64,000 nucleotides of DNA, from the NCBI RefSeq assembly GCF_009765965.1, contig NZ_LMUL01000014.1:2209884-2273883 (forward strand). Reading direction: 5' to 3'. The notes beneath the pieces are model-generated. The model was not told the DNA's origin. It ran no database searches and saw only the letters and a list, made by a program, of their open reading frames with translations. The DNA is from Caulobacter sp. S45 (GTDB taxonomy: Bacteria; Pseudomonadota; Alphaproteobacteria; Caulobacterales; Caulobacteraceae). The position numbers were made by a program, and so were the translations under genes. The first letter of the stretch is position 1. Every line of letters begins with the position of its first letter. This document shows positions 51,333 through 61,094 of the stretch, piece by piece.

Positions 51333-53741
51333 ATGGGGACACCTAAACTGATCTACGTCGCCTTGGCCTTCGTCGCGCCTGGATTGGCGGAGGCGCAGAC
51401 TACGGATGCGCCGGGCGCCACGACCGTGCAGGCGGTGGTGGTCGTCGCCGACAAGGCGGGCCTGCTCTCCCGCAAGGCCGGCAATGTGGTGCTGGGGATC
51501 GACAAGCCGCTGAGCGAAACGCCCCGCTCCGCCACCACCATCAGCGACACCACCCTGCAGCGCTACGGCGCCCAGACGGTGAACGACCTGGTGGCGCTGT
51601 CGCCGGGCGCCTTCACCGCCAGCTATTACGGCGTGGCGGGCGCGCTGAACCTGCGCGGCACGCTGGCGGAGACCTATTTCCGCGGCTTCAAGCTGATCGA
51701 GGACCGGGGCACCTACACCACGCCGATCGGCGATGCGGCTCAGATCGATATCGTGCGCGGGCCGCCCAGCCCCATCTATGGCGCCGGCAAGGTGGGCGGC
51801 TTCCTGAACATCACGCCCAAGACCGCCGCCGATCAGGCGGGTTCGCTGGACCAGCCCACCGGCGAGGTGTCCGCCACGCTGGGCAGCTACCAGCTCAAGG
51901 ACTTCACCGCCCAGGTCGCAGCCCCGCTGAAGCTCGGGACTCTCGACGGCGGGGTCTACGGCTACGGCGACTATTACGACGCCCACAGCTACTATCGCGG
52001 CATCTATCCCAGCCACCAGAACGTCGAGCTGGCGGCCAACCTGAACCTGCCGGACGGCTGGCGGTTCGAGGTTGGCGGGATGTATCTGCACGAGGAAGGC
52101 AATATCCAGACGCCGGGCTGGAACCGCCTGACCCAGGACCTGATCGACAACGGGACCTACATCACCGGCCACAACACCACCCTGGTGGACTCCAACCACG
52201 ACGGCCGTCTGGAGCCGGGCGAGGTCGGGCCGGGACCCGCCAGCTCCTATCCGTTCGGGACGTCGATCCTGCAGTTCGTCGGCGGGGCCGCAAAGCCCAC
52301 GGCCGATCCGCGCTTCGTGCTCGACACCGGCTTGGGGACGACCCAGCTCAGCCCGCGCGACGTGTTCGTCAGCTCAGCCGACTTCTCCCACACCGACACC
52401 CATGTCTACTACGCCGACCTGGACAAGACCTTCTCCAAGGACAGCGACCTGAAATTCCAGTTGTTCTACAACGACTTGGATAACAAGCGCTTCGTCAGCT
52501 ACGGCTTTCCGGCCTGGTATCGGACCTATGTCGCCGAGGCGCGCGTCCCCTACCATTTCAAGCTGTCCACGGCGGACGGCGGCCTGAGCGCCGACACGGT
52601 GCTGGGGGTCGACTACCGCTACACCCAGGCCCACCGGATGGAGAGCTTCGACTCCGGCCTGATCGCGGTGGACCGGCGCGACCTGTCGGTCGGCGCCACG
52701 CCGACGGACATCTTCGACAGCCCGTTCGACAATTCGCCGGGCGGGATCGGCTGGGAAATCGACAACCGCACGCGCGAGCGCGACGCGGGCGGCTTCGTCA
52801 CCACCGACATCGCCGTGGCGCACCGGCTCGACCTGATCCTGGGCGGCCGCTACGACTTCTTCAACGTAGAGGGCCGCGACACCGGCATCTTCTCGTTCGA
52901 GCCCGCCGGCACGCTGCGCGCCGGCCAGGGCAAGGGCACCTGGTCGGCCAGCGTGACCTACAAGCTGCCGCTGGGGCTGATCCCATACGTCACCTATTCC
53001 GAAGACGCGGCGTTGGAGGTCAACCAGGCCAGCGACATCCCGACCTCGGCTATCGCCAGCGGCGGCTGGCTGTCCAAGTCCGACCTGCGCGAGGCGGGCG
53101 TCAAGTTCAGCGAACTCAAGGGCGCCCTGGTCGGATCGGTCGACGTCTACCGCCAGACCCGCTCCCAGTTCGCCGGCCTGAATTCCGCGGTGCAGGGCAC
53201 GGTCGGCAAGGGGGTGGAGTCCGAGGTCCGCTGGTTGGCCACCTCCAACCTCAGCTTCACCTTCGCCGGCGACATCCAGCATACCGAGGTCAAAGGACCG
53301 GACGGCAGCCAAGTGCTGATCCCGCCCTCGGCGGTCGGCGTGCCGGACATCGACGGGTTCGGCGGGTCGTACTTCGCCACCATCTCGAGCCTGCCGGGGC
53401 GCGCGGGGAACTACGCCTACACCCTGATCCCGCACGGCACCTTCAGCCTGTACGCCAACTACATCACCGACCCGGCGGAGTGGGGACGCGCGGGCGCCAC
53501 CATCGGCGCGACCCACCAATCGCAGACCTCGGGCGTCATCGAGGGGGCGGTGGTCTATCCGGCCTACTTCGTGGCCAACGGGTCGATGTTCTACCGCAAG
53601 GGACCCTGGGAGACGGACCTGAACGTCGACAACCTGTTCGACAAGACCTACTTCACCCCCGACGCCGATATCCTCTCGGAAGTGGCCGCGCTCCCTTCGG
53701 TGGGACGGACATGGCGGCTGACGGTGAAGCGGAGCTTCTAA
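51333..53741 (+). CDS. TonB-dependent receptor
   Basis: An 802-residue outer-membrane receptor. The signal peptide is MGTPKLIYVALAFVAPGLAEAQ. A TonB-box-like segment VQAVVVVADKAG follows, and the plug contains ETPRSATTISDTTLQRYGAQTVNDLVALSPGAF, then VRGPPSPIYGAGKVGGFLNITPKT near 150. The barrel ends RTWRLTVKRSF with the C-terminal Phe. I chose the ATG at 51333 because the signal peptide starts there. The divergent FCD-type GntR gene suggests a role in uptake of an organic ligand instead of, or besides, iron chelates. The stop overlaps that of the convergent gene at 53738. Confidence 0.92.
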   Translation: MGTPKLIYVALAFVAPGLAEAQTTDAPGATTVQAVVVVADKAGLLSRKAGNVVLGIDKPLSETPRSATTISDTTLQRYGAQTVNDLVALSPGAFTASYYGVAGALNLRGTLAETYFRGFKLIEDRGTYTTPIGDAAQIDIVRGPPSPIYGAGKVGGFLNITPKTAADQAGSLDQPTGEVSATLGSYQLKDFTAQVAAPLKLGTLDGGVYGYGDYYDAHSYYRGIYPSHQNVELAANLNLPDGWRFEVGGMYLHEEGNIQTPGWNRLTQDLIDNGTYITGHNTTLVDSNHDGRLEPGEVGPGPASSYPFGTSILQFVGGAAKPTADPRFVLDTGLGTTQLSPRDVFVSSADFSHTDTHVYYADLDKTFSKDSDLKFQLFYNDLDNKRFVSYGFPAWYRTYVAEARVPYHFKLSTADGGLSADTVLGVDYRYTQAHRMESFDSGLIAVDRRDLSVGATPTDIFDSPFDNSPGGIGWEIDNRTRERDAGGFVTTDIAVAHRLDLILGGRYDFFNVEGRDTGIFSFEPAGTLRAGQGKGTWSASVTYKLPLGLIPYVTYSEDAALEVNQASDIPTSAIASGGWLSKSDLREAGVKFSELKGALVGSVDVYRQTRSQFAGLNSAVQGTVGKGVESEVRWLATSNLSFTFAGDIQHTEVKGPDGSQVLIPPSAVGVPDIDGFGGSYFATISSLPGRAGNYAYTLIPHGTFSLYANYITDPAEWGRAGATIGATHQSQTSGVIEGAVVYPAYFVANGSMFYRKGPWETDLNVDNLFDKTYFTPDADILSEVAALPSVGRTWRLTVKRSF

Positions 53742-54082
53742 ACCTCCAGGCCAGGTAGCGCCGACTGCAGATCCACGAACCAGCCTCGCGCCTTGTCCAG
53801 CTCGGCCCAGGGGACCGCGCCTAGGGGGAAGTGGCCGGCGATCACCATGGCGATGACGGCGCTGAGCTTGGACAGCCGGTCGCGGTCGCCCTGCGCCGGG
53901 TGTTCGCGTTGCGCCTGGATCAGCGCCTCGCGGTAGGCGCTCAGGGCTTTGGTGGCGGCGGTGAAGGCGTTGCCGTCGTTGTGCGGCCGCCCAGCCAGGG
54001 CCGCGTCCATCCGCGCCAGGGCGTCGGCATGCAGACCGGCCAGCGCATCGGCGGCCGATACATGGGTGTCCGCCGCGCTCAT
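53738..54082 (-). CDS. Uncharacterised protein coupled to formate dehydrogenase
   Basis: A 114-residue, mostly helical, soluble protein (MSAADTHVSAADALAGLHADALARMDAAL at the start, AVIAMVIAGHFPLGAVPWAELDKARGWFVDLQ near the end). Its ATG overlaps the stop of the formate dehydrogenase alpha gene as ATGA, so it is translated with it and probably acts with it. No family recognised, no cysteines; a cofactor chaperone or assembly factor is possible but unproven. Its stop codon overlaps, on the other strand, the stop of the TonB receptor. Confidence 0.75.
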   Translation of the reverse strand: MSAADTHVSAADALAGLHADALARMDAALAGRPHNDGNAFTAATKALSAYREALIQAQREHPAQGDRDRLSKLSAVIAMVIAGHFPLGAVPWAELDKARGWFVDLQSALPGLEV

Positions 54083-57000
54083 GTCTCGGTCACCAGACGC
54101 AGGGCTTCCGGCAGGCGGCCCGCGCGGATGTTGCAGGTGAGCGCCTTGGTGACGTTGATGCCGGTGTTGGCGTCGCCAGTGATGGCGAGGAGCGTGTTGG
54201 CCGCCGCGCCGTGGGCGTAGCCCTTCCAGCCGAACACCCAGGGCATGCCGATCAGGTGCACCTGCTTGCGGCCGATCTTGAACGGTCGCAGGCGTTCGGT
54301 GACCAAGGCCTTCACCTCGATCTCGCCGCGCAGGGTGGACAGCACCGTCCAGTCCAGGGTCCTGATCCCGATCTCTTCGGCCAGCTCGGGCGAAATCTCC
54401 ACGAACGCTTCCGGCTGCAGCTCGGCGGTATGGGGCATGATCCGGGTGCTGATGCCGGCGCAGTGCATCTCGGTCAGCCGGTAGGTGGTGAACACGTGCG
54501 GGAAGCGAGGGTCCTGCGGCGCGTGCAGCTCGTTGCCCTCATGGCGCCAGATGCGGGCGGTGGGGTTGAACTGGCGGCCGTAGAACAGGTTCTTCACCGG
54601 GCTTTCCACCGGCTCGTAATAGGTCGGCAGGGGGCCGTCCTTCAGGCCCGACGTCGCGAAGATGGCGCAGCGCCCGTCCGCGGTCATGATGAAGGGGTCC
54701 GAGCCGGATAGCGCGTCCATCCCCCGTGCGCCCTTGGACCAGTCGGGCTGGTAGTCGGGCCGCTTGTTGGCGACGAAGTCGGGCACGTCCAGGCCGGTCC
54801 ACTTCCCGCCTTCCTCGTCCCACCAGATCATCTTCTTGCGTTCCGACCAGGGCTTGCCCTCGGGATCGGCGGAAGCGCGATTGTACAGGGTGCGTCGGTT
54901 GGCGGGCCAGGCGAAGGCCCACTCATGATGACCCGATGTTGCGTCGGGCGCGTCGGGAATGCGCGAGCGGGTGGCGTTGTGGGTCTCGGTCGGGAAGGCC
55001 CCGGCATAGATCCAGCAGCCCGAGGCGGTGGAGCCGTCGTCCTTCAGGTCGGCGAACTTCGCGATCTGCTTGCGATCGGCAGTGGTGTAGCCGTTGATTT
55101 CCTTCAGCACCGCCTCGGCGCTGGGCTCCATGCGGTCGCCCTGCAGCGGATAGTCCCAGGTCAGGTCCTTCAGCGCCTGGTCGGCCGGCTCCTGGCTGTC
55201 GGCGTACATGGCCTTCAGTCGCCGGCCCAGGTGGTAGATGAACCAGAGATCGGAGCGGCTGTCGCCCGGCGCATCGCAGACATGGTCGTGCCACTGCACC
55301 AGGCGCGTGGTGTTGGTGAAGGTGCCTTCCTTCTCGCCCGGCATGGCGGCGGGCAGGAAGAACACCTCGGTGCCGATCTGGTCGGGGCGGATCGTCCCCC
55401 GCTGCACCCGCTGGCCGTTGTTCCAGAAGTCGGCGGTCTCGGTCATGGCGAAGTCGCGCACGACCAGCCATTCCAGCTTGGATAGGCCCTCCTCGACGAA
55501 CAGGGAGTTGCCGGCCCCCACCGCGGGGTTCTGGCCCATGATGAAGTGGCCTTTGATCGCTTCGTCGACCATGTTCAGGATCGAAGGCTCGTAGGAGGCG
55601 TCCCCGATCAGCTTGGGCAGGTGCTGGTAGCCATACTCGTTCTCCGCCGTGGCGGCGTCGCCGTACCAGGCCTTGAGCAGGCTGATCACGTACTTGGGCG
55701 TATTGGCCCACCAGCCGGTCGTCGGGGTCTCGGACCTTAGATAGCCCTCCAGGGTGGCGTGGTCCCGGAACAGCTTGGGCTGGGGCAGATAGCCCGGCAG
55801 GGTGTCGAACAAGGTCGGGATGTCGGTGGAGCCCTGGATGCTGGCATGGCCCCGCAGCGCCATGATCCCGCCGCCCGGCCGCCCCATGTTCCCGAGCAGG
55901 CCCTGCAGCAGGGCGGCCGCCCGGATCACCTGCACCCCGTGGGTGTGCTGGGTCCAGCCCAGAGCATAGCAGATGGTGGTCGTACGCTCGCGGCCCGAGT
56001 TGCGGGTCACCGTCTCCGCCACCCTCAGGAAGGTCTCCTTGGGGCAGCCGGTGGCCGCCTCGACCATCTCGGGGGTGTAGCGCGCATAGTGGCGCTTCAG
56101 GATCTGGTAGACGCAGTTGGGGTGTTGGAGCGTGGGATCGCGCTCGGCCGGCCCCTGGGTCATGGACTCGAAATCGCGTCCAAGCTCGGGCGGATCGGTG
56201 GCGATCTGGTGGTCCGGCAGCGGGGGCGGGACCATCTTGCCCTTATATTGCCAGGTGTCCTGCCGATAGATGCCGTTGTCCGGGTCGTAGCCCGAGAACA
56301 CCCCGTCCAGCTCCTCGGTGTCCTGGAAGCCGTCTTCGATGATGTTGGAGATGTTGGTGTAGTTCATCGCGTATTCGCGGAACCACAGATCGTTCTCGAT
56401 CACATAACGGATCAGGCCGCCGAGGAAGGCGATGTCGGAGCCCGAGCGAACCGGCGCATGGATGCCCGAAAGCGCCGAGGTGCGGGTGAACCGCGGGTCG
56501 GCGTGGATGACGGTCGCGCCCTTACGCTGGGCCTCGATCACGAAGCGGAACGCGATCGGATGGTTCTCCGCCATGTTGGAGCCCATGACGAACACGCAAT
56601 CGGCGTTCGCCACGTCCCAGAGGGCCATCGTCGCCGCGCCGCGGCCGAAGGTGGCGCCCAGACTGGGCACCGATGAGGAGTGTCATATTCGAGCTTGGTT
56701 CTCGATATTGACCATGCCCAGGCCGCCGCTGAACAACTTCTTGATGAGGTAGTTTTCCTCGTTGTCCATGGTCGCGCCGCCCAGGTGGCTGATCGCGGTG
56801 GTCTGGTTCACCACCCGCCCGTCGGGCAGGGCGTGGACGTGGGTTTCGTCGCGCGCCTTCTTGGTCAGCTCGGCGATGCGGTCCATCGCCCATTCCAGGG
56901 GCTTGACCTCCCAGGTGTCGGAATTCGGGGCGCGATATAGGGTCTGGTTCACCCGCTTGGGGCTCAGCAGCATGCCGAGCGTGGCGCCGCCCTTGGGGCA

Positions 57001-57276
57001 GAGGCAGCCGCGGTTCACCGGGCTGCGGGGATCGCCCTCGATATGGATGGGCTTGCGGTTCTTGGCGTAGACGAGCTGGGCGCAGCCGACCGCGCAGAAG
57101 GGGCAGATGCTGGTGCCTATCGTGTCCGCCTCCTCCAGCCGGGGGCGGAGGTCGTTGGACAGGGAACTCTTGGATGCGGTCGAGAACATGTCCTCGCCCG
57201 CCAGTTGGCGCGGAACGGCCCAATCGCGGAGGAACCGCTCGGCGCGGCTCACAATGGTCTTACGCAGTCTCTTCAC
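54079..57276 (-). CDS. Selenocysteine-containing formate dehydrogenase, alpha (catalytic) subunit
   Basis: One gene of 1,066 codons, read through an in-frame TGA at 56685-56683 that should encode selenocysteine at residue 198. Before it: the [4Fe-4S] motif CPFCAVGCAQLVYAKN with later Cys in GCLCPKGG (residues 58-94), and the lead-in NIENQARI. After it: HSSSVPSLGATFGRG, as in E. coli FdnG, where Sec is at residue 196. Further on, YALGWTQHTHGVQVIRAAALLQGLLGNMGRPGGGI and the C-terminal molybdopterin-binding domain match the FdnG/FdoG family. A SECIS-like hairpin follows the TGA. No twin-arginine signal is visible at the N-terminus (MKRLRKTIVSRAERFLRDW), unlike FdnG. Start is GTG with GAGGG upstream. 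Confidence 0.9.
56653..56685 (-). promoter_or_regulatory. UGA codon plus SECIS-like hairpin
   Basis: On the coding strand the TGA (56685-56683) is followed by 11 bases and then the hairpin GGTGCCC-AGTCT-GGGCGCC (56671-56653): a 7-pair stem with one G-U pair and a 5-base loop AGUCU. Bacterial SelB recognises just such a short upper stem about 11 bases after the UGA; E. coli fdhF has a GGUCU-type loop at the same distance, from memory. This distinguishes recoding from an ordinary stop. Confidence 0.82.
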
Positions 57277-57334: not shown

Positions 57335-57448
57335 CGGGTGGGTTCCTAGCGTCGGAAAGGGAAAAGCGCCCTTTCAGATCGCGATTTCTGTTATCGTTTC
57401 ACCGCCGACCGGGATCGCCGTCTTGAGTGGGGTCGGGAGGATGGATGC

Positions 57449-57700
57449 ATGTCTAAAGCCGCCGCCGGCCCTATGGCCGAGATGGAAGGCGTCGTCACCG
57501 TGGTGCAGGAAGGTCGTTTTCAGCTCACCGACCTTGGCGGGGTTTCGCACAATTTCATGCTGAGCCGTTTCGCCCTGGCGGAGACCGAGCAGCTACCGGC
57601 GCTCCAGAACGCCCAGTCGCGGGTGCGCGTTAAGTATTCCCAGGCCGACAAGCTGATCGCCTATCTCGCCCACCGTATCGACCTGCTGGACGTCGCCTGA
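57449..57700 (+). CDS. Small uncharacterised protein of the formate dehydrogenase operon
   Basis: An 83-residue protein: EMEGVVTVVQEGRFQLTDLGGVSHNFMLSRFALAETEQLP then VRVKYSQADKLIAYLAHRIDLLDV. The first half reads as a small beta barrel, resembling OB-fold-like or ribosome-site-adjacent accessory domains, without a recognised family. It has no signal peptide, membrane span or cysteine. It starts the rightward unit and lies 11 bases before the iron-sulfur subunit gene, so it is likely involved in the enzyme's function, assembly or regulation. GGGAGG precedes the ATG at suitable distance. Confidence 0.75.
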   Translation: MSKAAAGPMAEMEGVVTVVQEGRFQLTDLGGVSHNFMLSRFALAETEQLPALQNAQSRVRVKYSQADKLIAYLAHRIDLLDVA

Positions 57701-57711
57701 GGAGGCCGGCT

Positions 57712-58656
57712 GTGGAAATCCATCCTTTCGCCCGCGCCCGTGAGTATCCGGACTCGGTGTTTCACGACGTCATCCCCAACGAATCCGAGTTAACCGGCGG
57801 GGTGACGATCGAGCCCGGCAAGCAGTACGGCTTCTTCACCGACACCACCGTCTGCATCGGCTGCAAGTCCTGCGAAGTGGCCTGCAAGGAGTGGAACAAC
57901 CTGCCTGCCGACGACATCGGGCTGACGGGGCAGAGCTACGACAACACCGGCGCGCTTTCCGCCAACACCTGGCGGCATGTGAACTTCATCGAGAAGAAGC
58001 AGGCGCTGGCGGACGACACCGCCGAGCGGCCCGCGCGCGGGGTGCGCGATAACGACCAGAACGCCTTCCAGAGCGGCTGGTTGATGATGAGCGACGTGTG
58101 CAAGCACTGCCATCACGCGCCCTGCATGGAGTCGTGCCCCACCGGCGCGCTGTTCAAGACCGAGTTCGACACCGTGGTGGTGCAGCAGGACATCTGCAAC
58201 GGCTGCGGCTACTGCGTCTCAGCCTGTCCGTTCGGGGTGGTGGCCCTCAACCCGCTCGACGGCAAGGCCCACAAGTGCACCCTCTGCTACGACCGGCTCA
58301 AGGGCGGGTTGGAGCCGGCCTGCGCCAAGGCCTGCCCCACCGAGAGCATCCAGTTCGGCGAACTGTCCGACCTCTGGGAACGCGCCGCGACCCGGGTGGA
58401 GGACCTTCATGCGCGCGGCGTGACCAGCGCCTACACCTACGGCACGCCCGATGCGCCCGGCGCCACCGGCGACATGAAGTATCTCAACTCCTTCTTCCTG
58501 CTCACCGACCGGCCGGAAGCCTACAACCTGCCCGCCGCCCCCACCCGCCCGTCCAACCGGGTGGCGCCGGCCTTCGCCGCCGGCCTGAGCACGATCGCCG
58601 GGCTGGCCCTGGCGGCGGCGGTGTTGTTCGCCGGCGCAAAGACCACGAGAGACTAG
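57712..58656 (+). CDS. Formate dehydrogenase iron-sulfur (beta) subunit
   Basis: A 314-residue electron-transfer subunit with four [4Fe-4S] motifs: VCIGCKSCEVACKEWN near 44, VCKHCHHAPCMESCPTGA near 128, ICNGCGYCVSACPFGV near 162 and KCTLCYDRLKGGLEPACAKACPTES near 188, the FdnH/FdoH arrangement. The last 30 residues (FAAGLSTIAGLALAAAVLFAGA) form one membrane helix, as in FdoH. It passes electrons from the selenoprotein alpha subunit to the membrane partner. Start is GTG with GAGGAGG upstream. The NrfD-type gene begins 2 bases later, so these two are coupled. Confidence 0.92.
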   Translation: MEIHPFARAREYPDSVFHDVIPNESELTGGVTIEPGKQYGFFTDTTVCIGCKSCEVACKEWNNLPADDIGLTGQSYDNTGALSANTWRHVNFIEKKQALADDTAERPARGVRDNDQNAFQSGWLMMSDVCKHCHHAPCMESCPTGALFKTEFDTVVVQQDICNGCGYCVSACPFGVVALNPLDGKAHKCTLCYDRLKGGLEPACAKACPTESIQFGELSDLWERAATRVEDLHARGVTSAYTYGTPDAPGATGDMKYLNSFFLLTDRPEAYNLPAAPTRPSNRVAPAFAAGLSTIAGLALAAAVLFAGAKTTRD

Positions 58657-58657
58657 G

Positions 58658-59668
58658 ATGCCTGAACATCGCGATGGCCGCGCCGTATCCAAGGGCGCCG
58701 CATCCCCGGAGGCGGCGGCCTGGAAGGGGCCGACCTATTACGGCCGATCCCAGCTCAAGCCCTCGCCGTTCAACGCCTGGGTGGTGGGCGGCTACATCTT
58801 CCTGGCCGGTCTCTCCGGCGCCTCGGCGGTGGTCTCGACCGTGGCCGAGGCGGTTCAGGGCGAGCGGGGCGCGAGCATCGGCCGAAAGGGGCGCTACCTG
58901 TCGATGCTGGCGCCGCTGGTCGGCGCGCCGCTGCTGATCCTCGACCTGCACACGCCGACGCGCTTCTACAACATGTGGCGCATCGTCAAACGCACCTCGC
59001 CCATGTCGCTGGGCACCTGGATCCTCACCGCCTTCATTGGCGGGGCCGGGGTGGCGGTGGTCGCCCAGCTCGGCGTCGACCTGCTGGGGCTGAAATGGCT
59101 GAAGCGGATCGCGCGGCTGGGCTCGGCGCCGGCCGCGATCACCGGGGCGGGCATCTCGACCTACACCGCCGCCCTGCTGGCGGCCACCAGCGCGCCTTAC
59201 TGGGCCGCCGACGAAAAGGGTTTGGGCGTGCGGTTCGCCTCGTCCTCGATCGCCGCGGGCTCGGCCGCCCTGGCGCTGGGGGAAAAGTCCCGTTCCACCC
59301 GCCGCACCCTCAACGCCATCACCGGCATCGCCCTGCTCACCGAGCTGGTCGCCACCGCCGTCCACCACAAGAACGTCAAGGCCAAGGGCGTCGGCGCCTC
59401 GCTGGAGAGCGAGTGGGCGCATATCGAGGAGGCGGCCGTGCTGGGCCTGGGCGTCCTGCTGCCGCTGGGCCTGTACGTCGCCTCCCGGCGGCTGGGCGAC
59501 CGCAAGCGCGCTGGGGCGGTTTCGGACCTCGCCTCGCTCGCGGTGATGGCCGGAAGCGCCATGCTGCGGGTGTCCACCATCCGCATCGGCCAGGATTCCG
59601 CCAGCCGGCCGGAGGTGAGCCTGCGCTTCAGCCAGCCTGAAAACCTGCCCAAAAAGCGGAGGGCCTAG
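58658..59668 (+). CDS. NrfD-type membrane subunit
   Basis: A 336-residue polytopic protein with about eight membrane segments. NAWVVGGYIFLAGLSGASAVVSTVAE near residue 40, then APLLILDLHTPTRFYNMWRIVKRTSPMSLGTW near 92, are the NrfD/PsrC signature, with the conserved LxLxRPxRF(Y)-type loop. NrfD proteins take electrons from an iron-sulfur subunit to reduce quinone without heme. Its use in place of the cytochrome b gamma subunit of E. coli FDH-N/O is notable. Coupled to the beta-subunit gene. The C-terminal tail (GQDSASRPEVSLRFSQP) is cytoplasmic by charge. Confidence 0.88.
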   Translation: MPEHRDGRAVSKGAASPEAAAWKGPTYYGRSQLKPSPFNAWVVGGYIFLAGLSGASAVVSTVAEAVQGERGASIGRKGRYLSMLAPLVGAPLLILDLHTPTRFYNMWRIVKRTSPMSLGTWILTAFIGGAGVAVVAQLGVDLLGLKWLKRIARLGSAPAAITGAGISTYTAALLAATSAPYWAADEKGLGVRFASSSIAAGSAALALGEKSRSTRRTLNAITGIALLTELVATAVHHKNVKAKGVGASLESEWAHIEEAAVLGLGVLLPLGLYVASRRLGDRKRAGAVSDLASLAVMAGSAMLRVSTIRIGQDSASRPEVSLRFSQPENLPKKRRA

Positions 59669-59812: not shown

Positions 59813-60685
59813 ATGTTTCAGATCATCGGCGTTGTGCTGCTGTTTGGCCTGGTGTTCGGCAGCTTCATCATGTCCGGCGGCAATATGGGCGTGATCATCG
59901 AGGCCGCCCCACACGAGCTTATGGCGATCCTGGGGGCGGGCGTGGCCTCGTTCCTGATCTCCAACAGCATGGTGGTGATCAAGGCCACCGGCGGCGGCTT
60001 CGGCAAGATCTTCAAGGGCCCGAAGTGGAAGGCCAAGGACTACACCGACCTGCTGTCGCTGCTGTTCGTGCTGACCAAGACCATGAAGACCAAGGGGGTC
60101 ATCGCGGTCGAAGGCCACATCGAGAAGCCTTCCGACAGCGCCATCTTCTCCAAATACCCCAGGATTCTAAAGGACCACTTCGCCGTGGACTTCATCTGCG
60201 ACACCCTGCGGATGATGACCATGAACCTGGAGGACCCCCACCAGGTCGAGGACTGCATGGAAAAGCAGCTCGAGAAGCACCACCACGAGGGCCTGGGCCC
60301 CGCCCACGCCCTGCAGAGCCTGGCCGACGCCCTGCCGGCGCTGGGCATCGTGGCGGCGGTGCTGGGGATCATCAAAACCATGGGCTCCATCACCCAGCCG
60401 CCGGAAATCCTAGGCGCGATGATTGGCAGCGCCCTGGTCGGGACTTTCCTCGGGGTGTTCCTGGCCTATGGCCTGGTCGGCCCTATGGCCACGCGCCTGA
60501 AGGAGGTGGTGGACGAGGAGAGCGCCTTCTACGCCATCATCCGTTCGGTGCTGGTCGCCCACCTGCACGGCAACGCGGCCCAAATCTCGGTGGAGATCGG
60601 CCGTGGCGCGGTGCCGTCCTCATCCCAGCCGAGCTTCATGGAGCTGGAAGAAGCCTTGAACACCATGTCTGCGGAGGCCGCATAA
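59813..60685 (+). CDS. motA: Flagellar motor stator protein MotA
   Basis: A 290-residue membrane protein with four predicted helices. The first is IIGVVLLFGLVFGSFIM and the second HELMAILGAGVASFLISNSM. A cytoplasmic loop includes the charged segment that contacts FliG (FSKYPRILKDHFAVDFICDTLRMMTM near 105), and the conserved proline-bearing third helix is LPALGIVAAVLGIIKTMG near 176. MotA with MotB forms the proton-driven stator. No motB is adjacent, as in Caulobacter, where the two are separate genes. TTAA-rich sequence lies about 60 bases upstream, but I cannot define a promoter. Genes with hook roles are 30 kb away. Confidence 0.95.
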   Translation: MFQIIGVVLLFGLVFGSFIMSGGNMGVIIEAAPHELMAILGAGVASFLISNSMVVIKATGGGFGKIFKGPKWKAKDYTDLLSLLFVLTKTMKTKGVIAVEGHIEKPSDSAIFSKYPRILKDHFAVDFICDTLRMMTMNLEDPHQVEDCMEKQLEKHHHEGLGPAHALQSLADALPALGIVAAVLGIIKTMGSITQPPEILGAMIGSALVGTFLGVFLAYGLVGPMATRLKEVVDEESAFYAIIRSVLVAHLHGNAAQISVEIGRGAVPSSSQPSFMELEEALNTMSAEAA

Positions 60686-60860: not shown

Positions 60861-61094
60861 ATGACCTCGATCCGTAAGATCATGCTTGCTGGCGCTGCCG
60901 TCGCCGCTCTGGGCGTCGCAGCTTGCCACGGCGGTGGCTCGGCCACCAACGAGACCGCCAACACCACCACCACCGACACCACCACCACGACCACCCCGGA
61001 CAACTCGACCGGCATGACCTCGAACACCACCACGACCAACACGGACGCTGGCGGCAACACCGAGACCACCAACACGACCACCAACTCTCAGTAA
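60861..61094 (+). CDS. Small Thr/Asn-rich lipoprotein
   Basis: A 77-residue protein with signal MTSIRKIMLAGAAVAALGVAAC; the LGVAAC stretch is a plausible lipobox with Cys22 lipidated. The mature 55 residues are almost only Thr, Asn, Gly, Ser and Asp (TTTTDTTTTTTPDNST, TSNTTTTNTD), a flexible hydrophilic tail, encoded by runs of ACC and AAC codons. AAGGGA precedes the ATG. A strong terminator follows. Function unknown; such surface lipoproteins may act as spacers or be targets for O-glycosylation. Confidence 0.78.
   Translation: MTSIRKIMLAGAAVAALGVAACHGGGSATNETANTTTTDTTTTTTPDNSTGMTSNTTTTNTDAGGNTETTNTTTNSQ

Follow-up and report, generated by a model that had tools for sequence, protein, structure and literature searches.

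Formate dehydrogenases anchored by an NrfD-like membrane subunit received their names from genome data and were described as uncharacterised (PMC8076601). In the account given there, the tentatively named FqoABC formate:quinone oxidoreductase possibly has three subunits and combines an FdnGH-like alpha-beta pair with an NrfD-like membrane subunit. The enzyme encoded in the window (the whole 64,000-nucleotide stretch of DNA that was analysed) has the same make-up, with FdnGH-like alpha and beta subunits and an NrfD-like one. Two differences stand out as far as that account goes: it includes neither the small gene nor the gene for a 114-residue protein described below, and its FqoC taxa do not include the Alphaproteobacteria, the class of both named plasmid hosts of this work. 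A precedent for an additional subunit is ForE (DUF1641) of Bacillus subtilis ForCE, a small uncharacterised protein that turned out to be indispensable as a partner subunit of the formate dehydrogenase (PMC8808070). Our small gene likewise accompanies a formate dehydrogenase catalytic gene, and its product is small and uncharacterised; unlike ForE, that product has no Pfam link, whereas ForE is a 17-21 kDa DUF1641 protein that goes with FdsA-type alphas.

Other accessory proteins come to mind as well. FdsD, FdhD and FdhE are accessory proteins of formate dehydrogenases, NapD is a small cytoplasmic protein encoded in the operon of one molybdoenzyme, with a ferredoxin-like fold, and binds a Tat signal, and HypC/HybG are small barrels that need an N-terminal Met-Cys. 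The small protein has no Pfam match to FdsD, FdhD or FdhE; no FdsD, ForE (DUF1641) or FdhE profile was listed for the 14 members of its family, and a search of the window's genome for FdhE_N gave no match. In contrast with NapD, it has a predicted OB-fold and the alphas of its carriers lack a Tat-like signal; at E up to 1, the 14 members drew 10 Pfam families, and NapD is not one of them. A small barrel, predicted here, is also the form of HypC/HybG, for which a role as enzyme-specific chaperone of a metalloenzyme is described (PMC9002611). A Met-Cys start was found in 0 of the 14 members, and HupF_HypC was not listed for any of them.

The small gene (57449..57700, + strand) codes for a protein of 83 residues devoid of Cys and Trp, and a ribosome-binding-like site, GGGAGG (57435..57440, +), can be read 8 bases upstream of its ATG. 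Its stop codon is separated by 11 bases from the GTG at 57712 that starts the gene of the beta (iron-sulfur) subunit (57712..58656, +), a protein with a single C-terminal hydrophobic segment at residues 284-310. The gene for the NrfD-like membrane subunit comes next (58658..59668, +; PF03916, 2e-15). The catalytic alpha subunit is encoded on the other strand (54079..57276, -). It scores 1472 bits against the NCBIfam formate dehydrogenase profile NF041513, above the curated cut-off of 1400 bits, has no Tat-like signal, and contains an in-frame TGA (56683..56685, -) as the selenocysteine codon at residue 198. As alpha is divergent on the minus strand, the small gene opens the beta-nrfD operon. 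These coordinates confirm an earlier note on this DNA, made from the sequence alone, which had placed the gene at the head of the operon, 11 bases before the iron-sulfur gene.

That note had recognised no family for the product. Our searches agreed: Pfam, NCBIfam and sequence comparison with the PDB all failed to give a convincing match. A same-genus genome (G002) retains the gene with ~70% identity to the window copy, and the differences between the two copies are distributed 18/11/32 over codon positions 1/2/3 (73 codons). This retention, the codon bias and the occurrence of homologues as far as the Chloroflexota put the small ORF beyond chance; on these comparisons it is a genuine gene, from a family not described so far. 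Its relative in Chelatococcus is annotated 'hypothetical protein', and no description of a gene of this kind was found in the titles and abstract openings that searches of the open-licence PubMed Central literature returned.

To collect the family, the window protein (P0001) and then profiles of 7 (A1) and 14 (A2) sequences were used as queries, and 14 members were obtained from the window's class and the Chloroflexota, 12 in genomes and 2 on plasmids. Among 60 near relatives, members were found in the window's own genome and G002; among 289 genomes of its class, in its own genome, G151 and G217; among 398 genomes of its phylum, in its own genome, G217 and G491; among 150 genomes of the order of G491, in G491 and G1034; and among 18 genomes of the order of G151, in G151. 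The Chloroflexota (221 genomes) contributed G700 (Kouleothrix aurantiaca), G713, G789, G837, G861 and G877. These samples overlap, and their totals should therefore not be added. In 72,556 plasmid records, members were found on plasmids of Indioceanicola profundi and Chelatococcus sp. CO-6. Genome-wide searches covered the window's phylum and the Chloroflexota; the Actinomycetota were covered through three records of the plasmid collection (L027, L029 and L030), all of the NrfD type and devoid of the small gene, two of them with selA, selB and selD alongside. Profile scores of members were at least 37.2 bits. Weak profile matches of 20.9-26.2 bits in G666, G501, G901, G778 and G1061 were set aside, as were weak class-sample matches in G066, G099, G180, G182, G286 and G319 that the profile did not confirm. 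No alpha, beta, nrfD or 114-residue-protein gene match was found in the stretches examined around these 11 rejected candidates. An 82-residue Thermomicrobium gene located 3' of nrfD was also discarded; its product is lipoprotein-like and the small-protein profile did not match it.

Formate dehydrogenase genes adjoin the small gene in 14 of the 14 members, and they are of one enzyme type, NrfD-anchored with an NF041513 alpha. The link to NrfD-type formate dehydrogenases drawn in the earlier note thus held, and the opposite pattern, homologues mainly away from such genes, was not observed. The small gene is located 5' of alpha on the same strand in six loci (L002, L012, L013, L049, L052 and L056), 5' of beta with a divergent alpha in the window, L057, L058 and L060, and 3' of nrfD in L050, L051 and L053. 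In G217 (L059, 118-674), an intact small gene is followed by an alpha cut down to about its first 110 codons, and a search of that genome with NF041513 gave nothing at E <= 1e-100. Thus, the small gene can outlast the enzyme, at least briefly. In G837, it shares a contig with nrfD, and a piece of alpha is on another contig (L148).

A second gene is co-conserved with the enzyme. It codes for an undescribed 114-residue protein, lies directly after alpha in the window (53738..54082, -), and is kept with this formate dehydrogenase clade, after alpha or after nrfD. Its profile matches 9 of the 14 carrier loci, three others (L002, L050 and L059) being cut off or broken; loci other than those of carriers gave no convincing score (best 14.1 bits), and no Pfam match was found for the six members tested.

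The association was also examined from the alpha side. Alphas above the cut-off are present in 2 of the 289 genomes of the class sample, both of them carriers of the small gene, and in 2 of the 150 genomes of the order of G491, exactly the two carriers. In the Chloroflexota they are present in 48 of 221 genomes. Among 60 Chloroflexota regions around strong alpha matches, a set that includes L148, the small gene was found only on the already known Kouleothrix contig of G700, the remaining carriers there having been retrieved separately; matches below ~1000 bits are mostly outside this set, where a clade member devoid of the gene could hide. Twelve carriers have a usable alpha, and in a tree of 76 alphas they form one clade that contains zero non-carriers (SH-aLRT 99), and the carrier trait changes once, versus 11.4 times on average after shuffling. 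Left out of it were L050, L054 and L055 (no alpha), L059 (127 aa) and L148 (374 aa). A more careful tree of 31 rows supports the carrier clade with bootstrap/SH-aLRT values of 100/99, and the grouping is identical in 100% of 200 bootstrap trees. Since carriers were partly recruited through the small gene, the statement that every clade member possesses it rests on the independent alpha-side searches, which recovered 11 of the 12 tree carriers (5 Chloroflexota, 2 from the class sample, 2 from the order sample and 2 plasmids). The small protein has a mean identity of 34% among the 12 carriers and alpha one of 63%, and the distances of the two proteins correlate (Mantel r 0.60, a value that none of 9999 permutations reached). 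G713 and G861 each harbour a second NF041513-like formate dehydrogenase (L130 and L120) that bears a Tat-like signal and lacks the small gene, and G151 and G491 harbour additional, lower-scoring FdnG-like alpha paralogues. In these trees and loci, the small gene follows a single clade in its inheritance and is missing next to sister enzymes, including those that share a genome with it.

The earlier note had also suggested an assembly or regulatory partner, perhaps specific to selenoprotein formate dehydrogenases with NrfD subunits, and this specificity did not stand. Eleven of the 12 tree carrier alphas have Sec; that of Chelatococcus has Cys (ARVCHANSVP) with the small gene kept, and 55 of the 64 non-carrier loci have a Sec alpha together with nrfD. 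A selenium-specific role was therefore rejected. On this evidence, the small gene is a mark of one clade of enzyme, not of selenium use.

A scan for Tat-like signals found them in 0 of 13 carrier alphas versus 19 of 65 others, the latter including the alpha piece of carrier G837 (L148), which has none. The carrier enzyme should thus face the cytoplasm, and the absence of a Tat-like signal is not exclusive to carriers. Column-by-column comparisons of carriers and others revealed few private residues in alpha, none in NrfD, and a private N-terminal tail in beta. With the upstream reading frame included, the motif T.[GQ]..[IV].PG..YGFFTD marks each of the 11 carrier betas and is missing from all of the 59 others, a count made without L031, L032, L132 and L133, which are of other formate dehydrogenase types, and without loci lacking a beta match. 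In the window it corresponds to beta residues 28-44, TGGVTIEPGKQYGFFTD (57793..57843, +), a putative docking site. As the tail and the small gene mark the same clade, they represent one evolutionary event, not 11. This coincidence suggests that the beta tail and the small protein may work together. An N-terminal extension of alpha was considered as a private partner and discarded; by eye it is similar in the non-carriers L027, L029 and L091 and differs in the carriers L051 and L053.

The small beta barrel without cysteines anticipated in the earlier note was recovered by modelling, at modest confidence. An AlphaFold2 model of the window protein with the Kouleothrix homologue (two-sequence alignment; pLDDT 71, pTM 0.63) has strands at residues 10-20, 23-28 and 33-43, a helix at 46-54, and strands at 58-64 and 72-79, which is the OB order b1-b2-b3-alpha-b4-b5. 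Modelled alone, the Kouleothrix homologue gave a pLDDT of 56.5, too poor for use. Many of the structural matches are OB proteins, and CusF/SilF, PriB, RecO, SSB and IF-1 are among them, the best Foldseek E being 3.7e-3 and none reaching 0.001 or less. CusF and SilF are the top fold matches, with Z of 9.2 and 7.9-8.4 (2qcp: rmsd 2.4, 71 aligned), and values near 8 are common for small folds. Based on this model, the protein probably adopts an OB-fold, and the matches suggest a fold rather than a function. In the alignment of the 14 members, G14, E21, R23, G31, L38 and V61 are invariant, and Q20, F24, L26 and V59 nearly so. No Cys, His, Met or Trp column is conserved, and the net charges range from -3 to +5, without a general basic excess.

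Because the gene travels with one branch of the enzyme in distant bacteria, its product probably serves that enzyme alone, as a component or as a helper, and we consider it quite likely to be a protein partner of this clade, as a subunit or an assembly factor. The gene stays closely linked to the enzyme across two distant groups and through three gene orders, which supports such a partnership, as do the alpha clade that coincides with the gene, its absence from sister enzymes, the carrier alphas without Tat-like signals and the private beta tail. Sister enzymes lack the small gene, which is hence not generally needed. Between the two kinds of partner, we lean tentatively, and with less than even confidence, towards a stable accessory subunit on the alpha-beta module, docked near the beta tail; the private tail, with ForE as a precedent, tips us that way. 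On this view, a small cytoplasmic protein with a predicted OB-fold serves a single clade of NrfD-anchored, 'Fqo' type formate:quinone oxidoreductases (alpha-beta-NrfD); it would attach on the cytoplasmic side to the peripheral alpha-beta module and stay bound. It would dock on or near the N-terminal tail of beta, just before the first [4Fe-4S] ligands, where it might keep alpha joined to beta or protect the first cluster. Its candidate contact face is the conserved Q-E-x-R-F turn that links strands 1 and 2. If so, the small gene marks a likely missing component of NrfD-anchored formate dehydrogenases. Such enzymes attract interest for formate/CO2 conversion, and their expression may fail without the small gene. 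A more elaborate proposal, which we regard as unlikely, would make it a fourth subunit, an OB-fold clamp on the beta tail that forms with the 114-residue protein an accessory set replacing FdhE-type maturation in the clade.

A transient assembly or proofreading chaperone of alpha or beta follows close behind the subunit reading, and the data presented here do not separate the two. Such a protein, modelled on NapD for NapA or HypC for hydrogenase, would stay on the cytoplasmic apo-subunit while the cofactor is inserted and until alpha and beta have joined, and then leave. We find this possible, if somewhat doubtful. The protein is small, cluster-bound and enzyme-specific, and this enzyme class requires the insertion of a large cofactor. 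FdhE_N was not found in four of the six carriers of the window's class (G000, G002, G217 and G1034), and in the other two, G151 and G491, it shares a contig with the FdnG-like paralogue; the second co-conserved small gene also suggests an accessory set. Nevertheless, we detected no convincing sequence link to a known chaperone family, related Sec formate dehydrogenases occur without the small gene, and a permanent subunit explains the private beta tail equally well. Moreover, none of 40 Chloroflexota genomes searched for FdhE_N, with or without the small gene, gave a match, and its absence is thus uninformative there.

The predicted OB-fold, with IF-1, PriB and SSB among the structural matches, and the position of the gene, which leads operons and is directly 5' of alpha in six loci, could also fit an RNA- or DNA-binding regulator of the cluster, such as a translation or selenocysteine-insertion factor resembling IF-1 or the cold-shock proteins. 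We consider such a regulator improbable. The net charges of the 14 members are near zero, which makes nucleic acid binding less likely, and IF-1 and cold-shock profiles gave no match to any of them at E up to 1. Furthermore, the Chelatococcus Cys alpha retains the gene, the gene also occurs 3' of nrfD, and the 55 non-carrier loci with a Sec alpha do without it.

CusF and SilF are metal chaperones with conserved His/Met/Trp metal ligands. Their rank among the fold matches, together with weak UreE_N matches in 3 of the 14 members, would fit a CusF-like or UreE_N-like carrier that delivers Mo/W or a cluster. This role is very improbable, because residues of the metal-ligand type are not conserved: in contrast with CusF and SilF, the family has no invariant His, Met, Trp or Cys ligand column. 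The UreE N-terminal domain matches are not significant (best E 0.064) and are near chance, and the Z-scores carry little weight for so small a fold. Lastly, that the gene is a passenger without any role in the enzyme, retained by shared history, is hardly credible: it is intact beside the broken alpha of G217, but it has been kept through three gene orders at its low mean identity, and the same-genus pair shows third-position bias.

Some neighbouring genes deserve mention. On the Indioceanicola plasmid, a 728-residue ORF (L012, 4733-6919) upstream of the small gene looks, as judged by eye, like a fusion of a selenophosphate synthase with a pyridine-nucleotide oxidoreductase. The Chelatococcus plasmid formate dehydrogenase with Cys in place of Sec (L013, 7231-10461) is encoded downstream of sugar-alcohol genes. 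In the window, the flagellar stator gene motA (59813-60685, +; MotA1 match) directly follows the formate dehydrogenase operon, and a 77-residue ORF (60861-61094, +) codes for a protein with, by eye, a lipoprotein-like start and an extremely Asn/Thr-rich tail.
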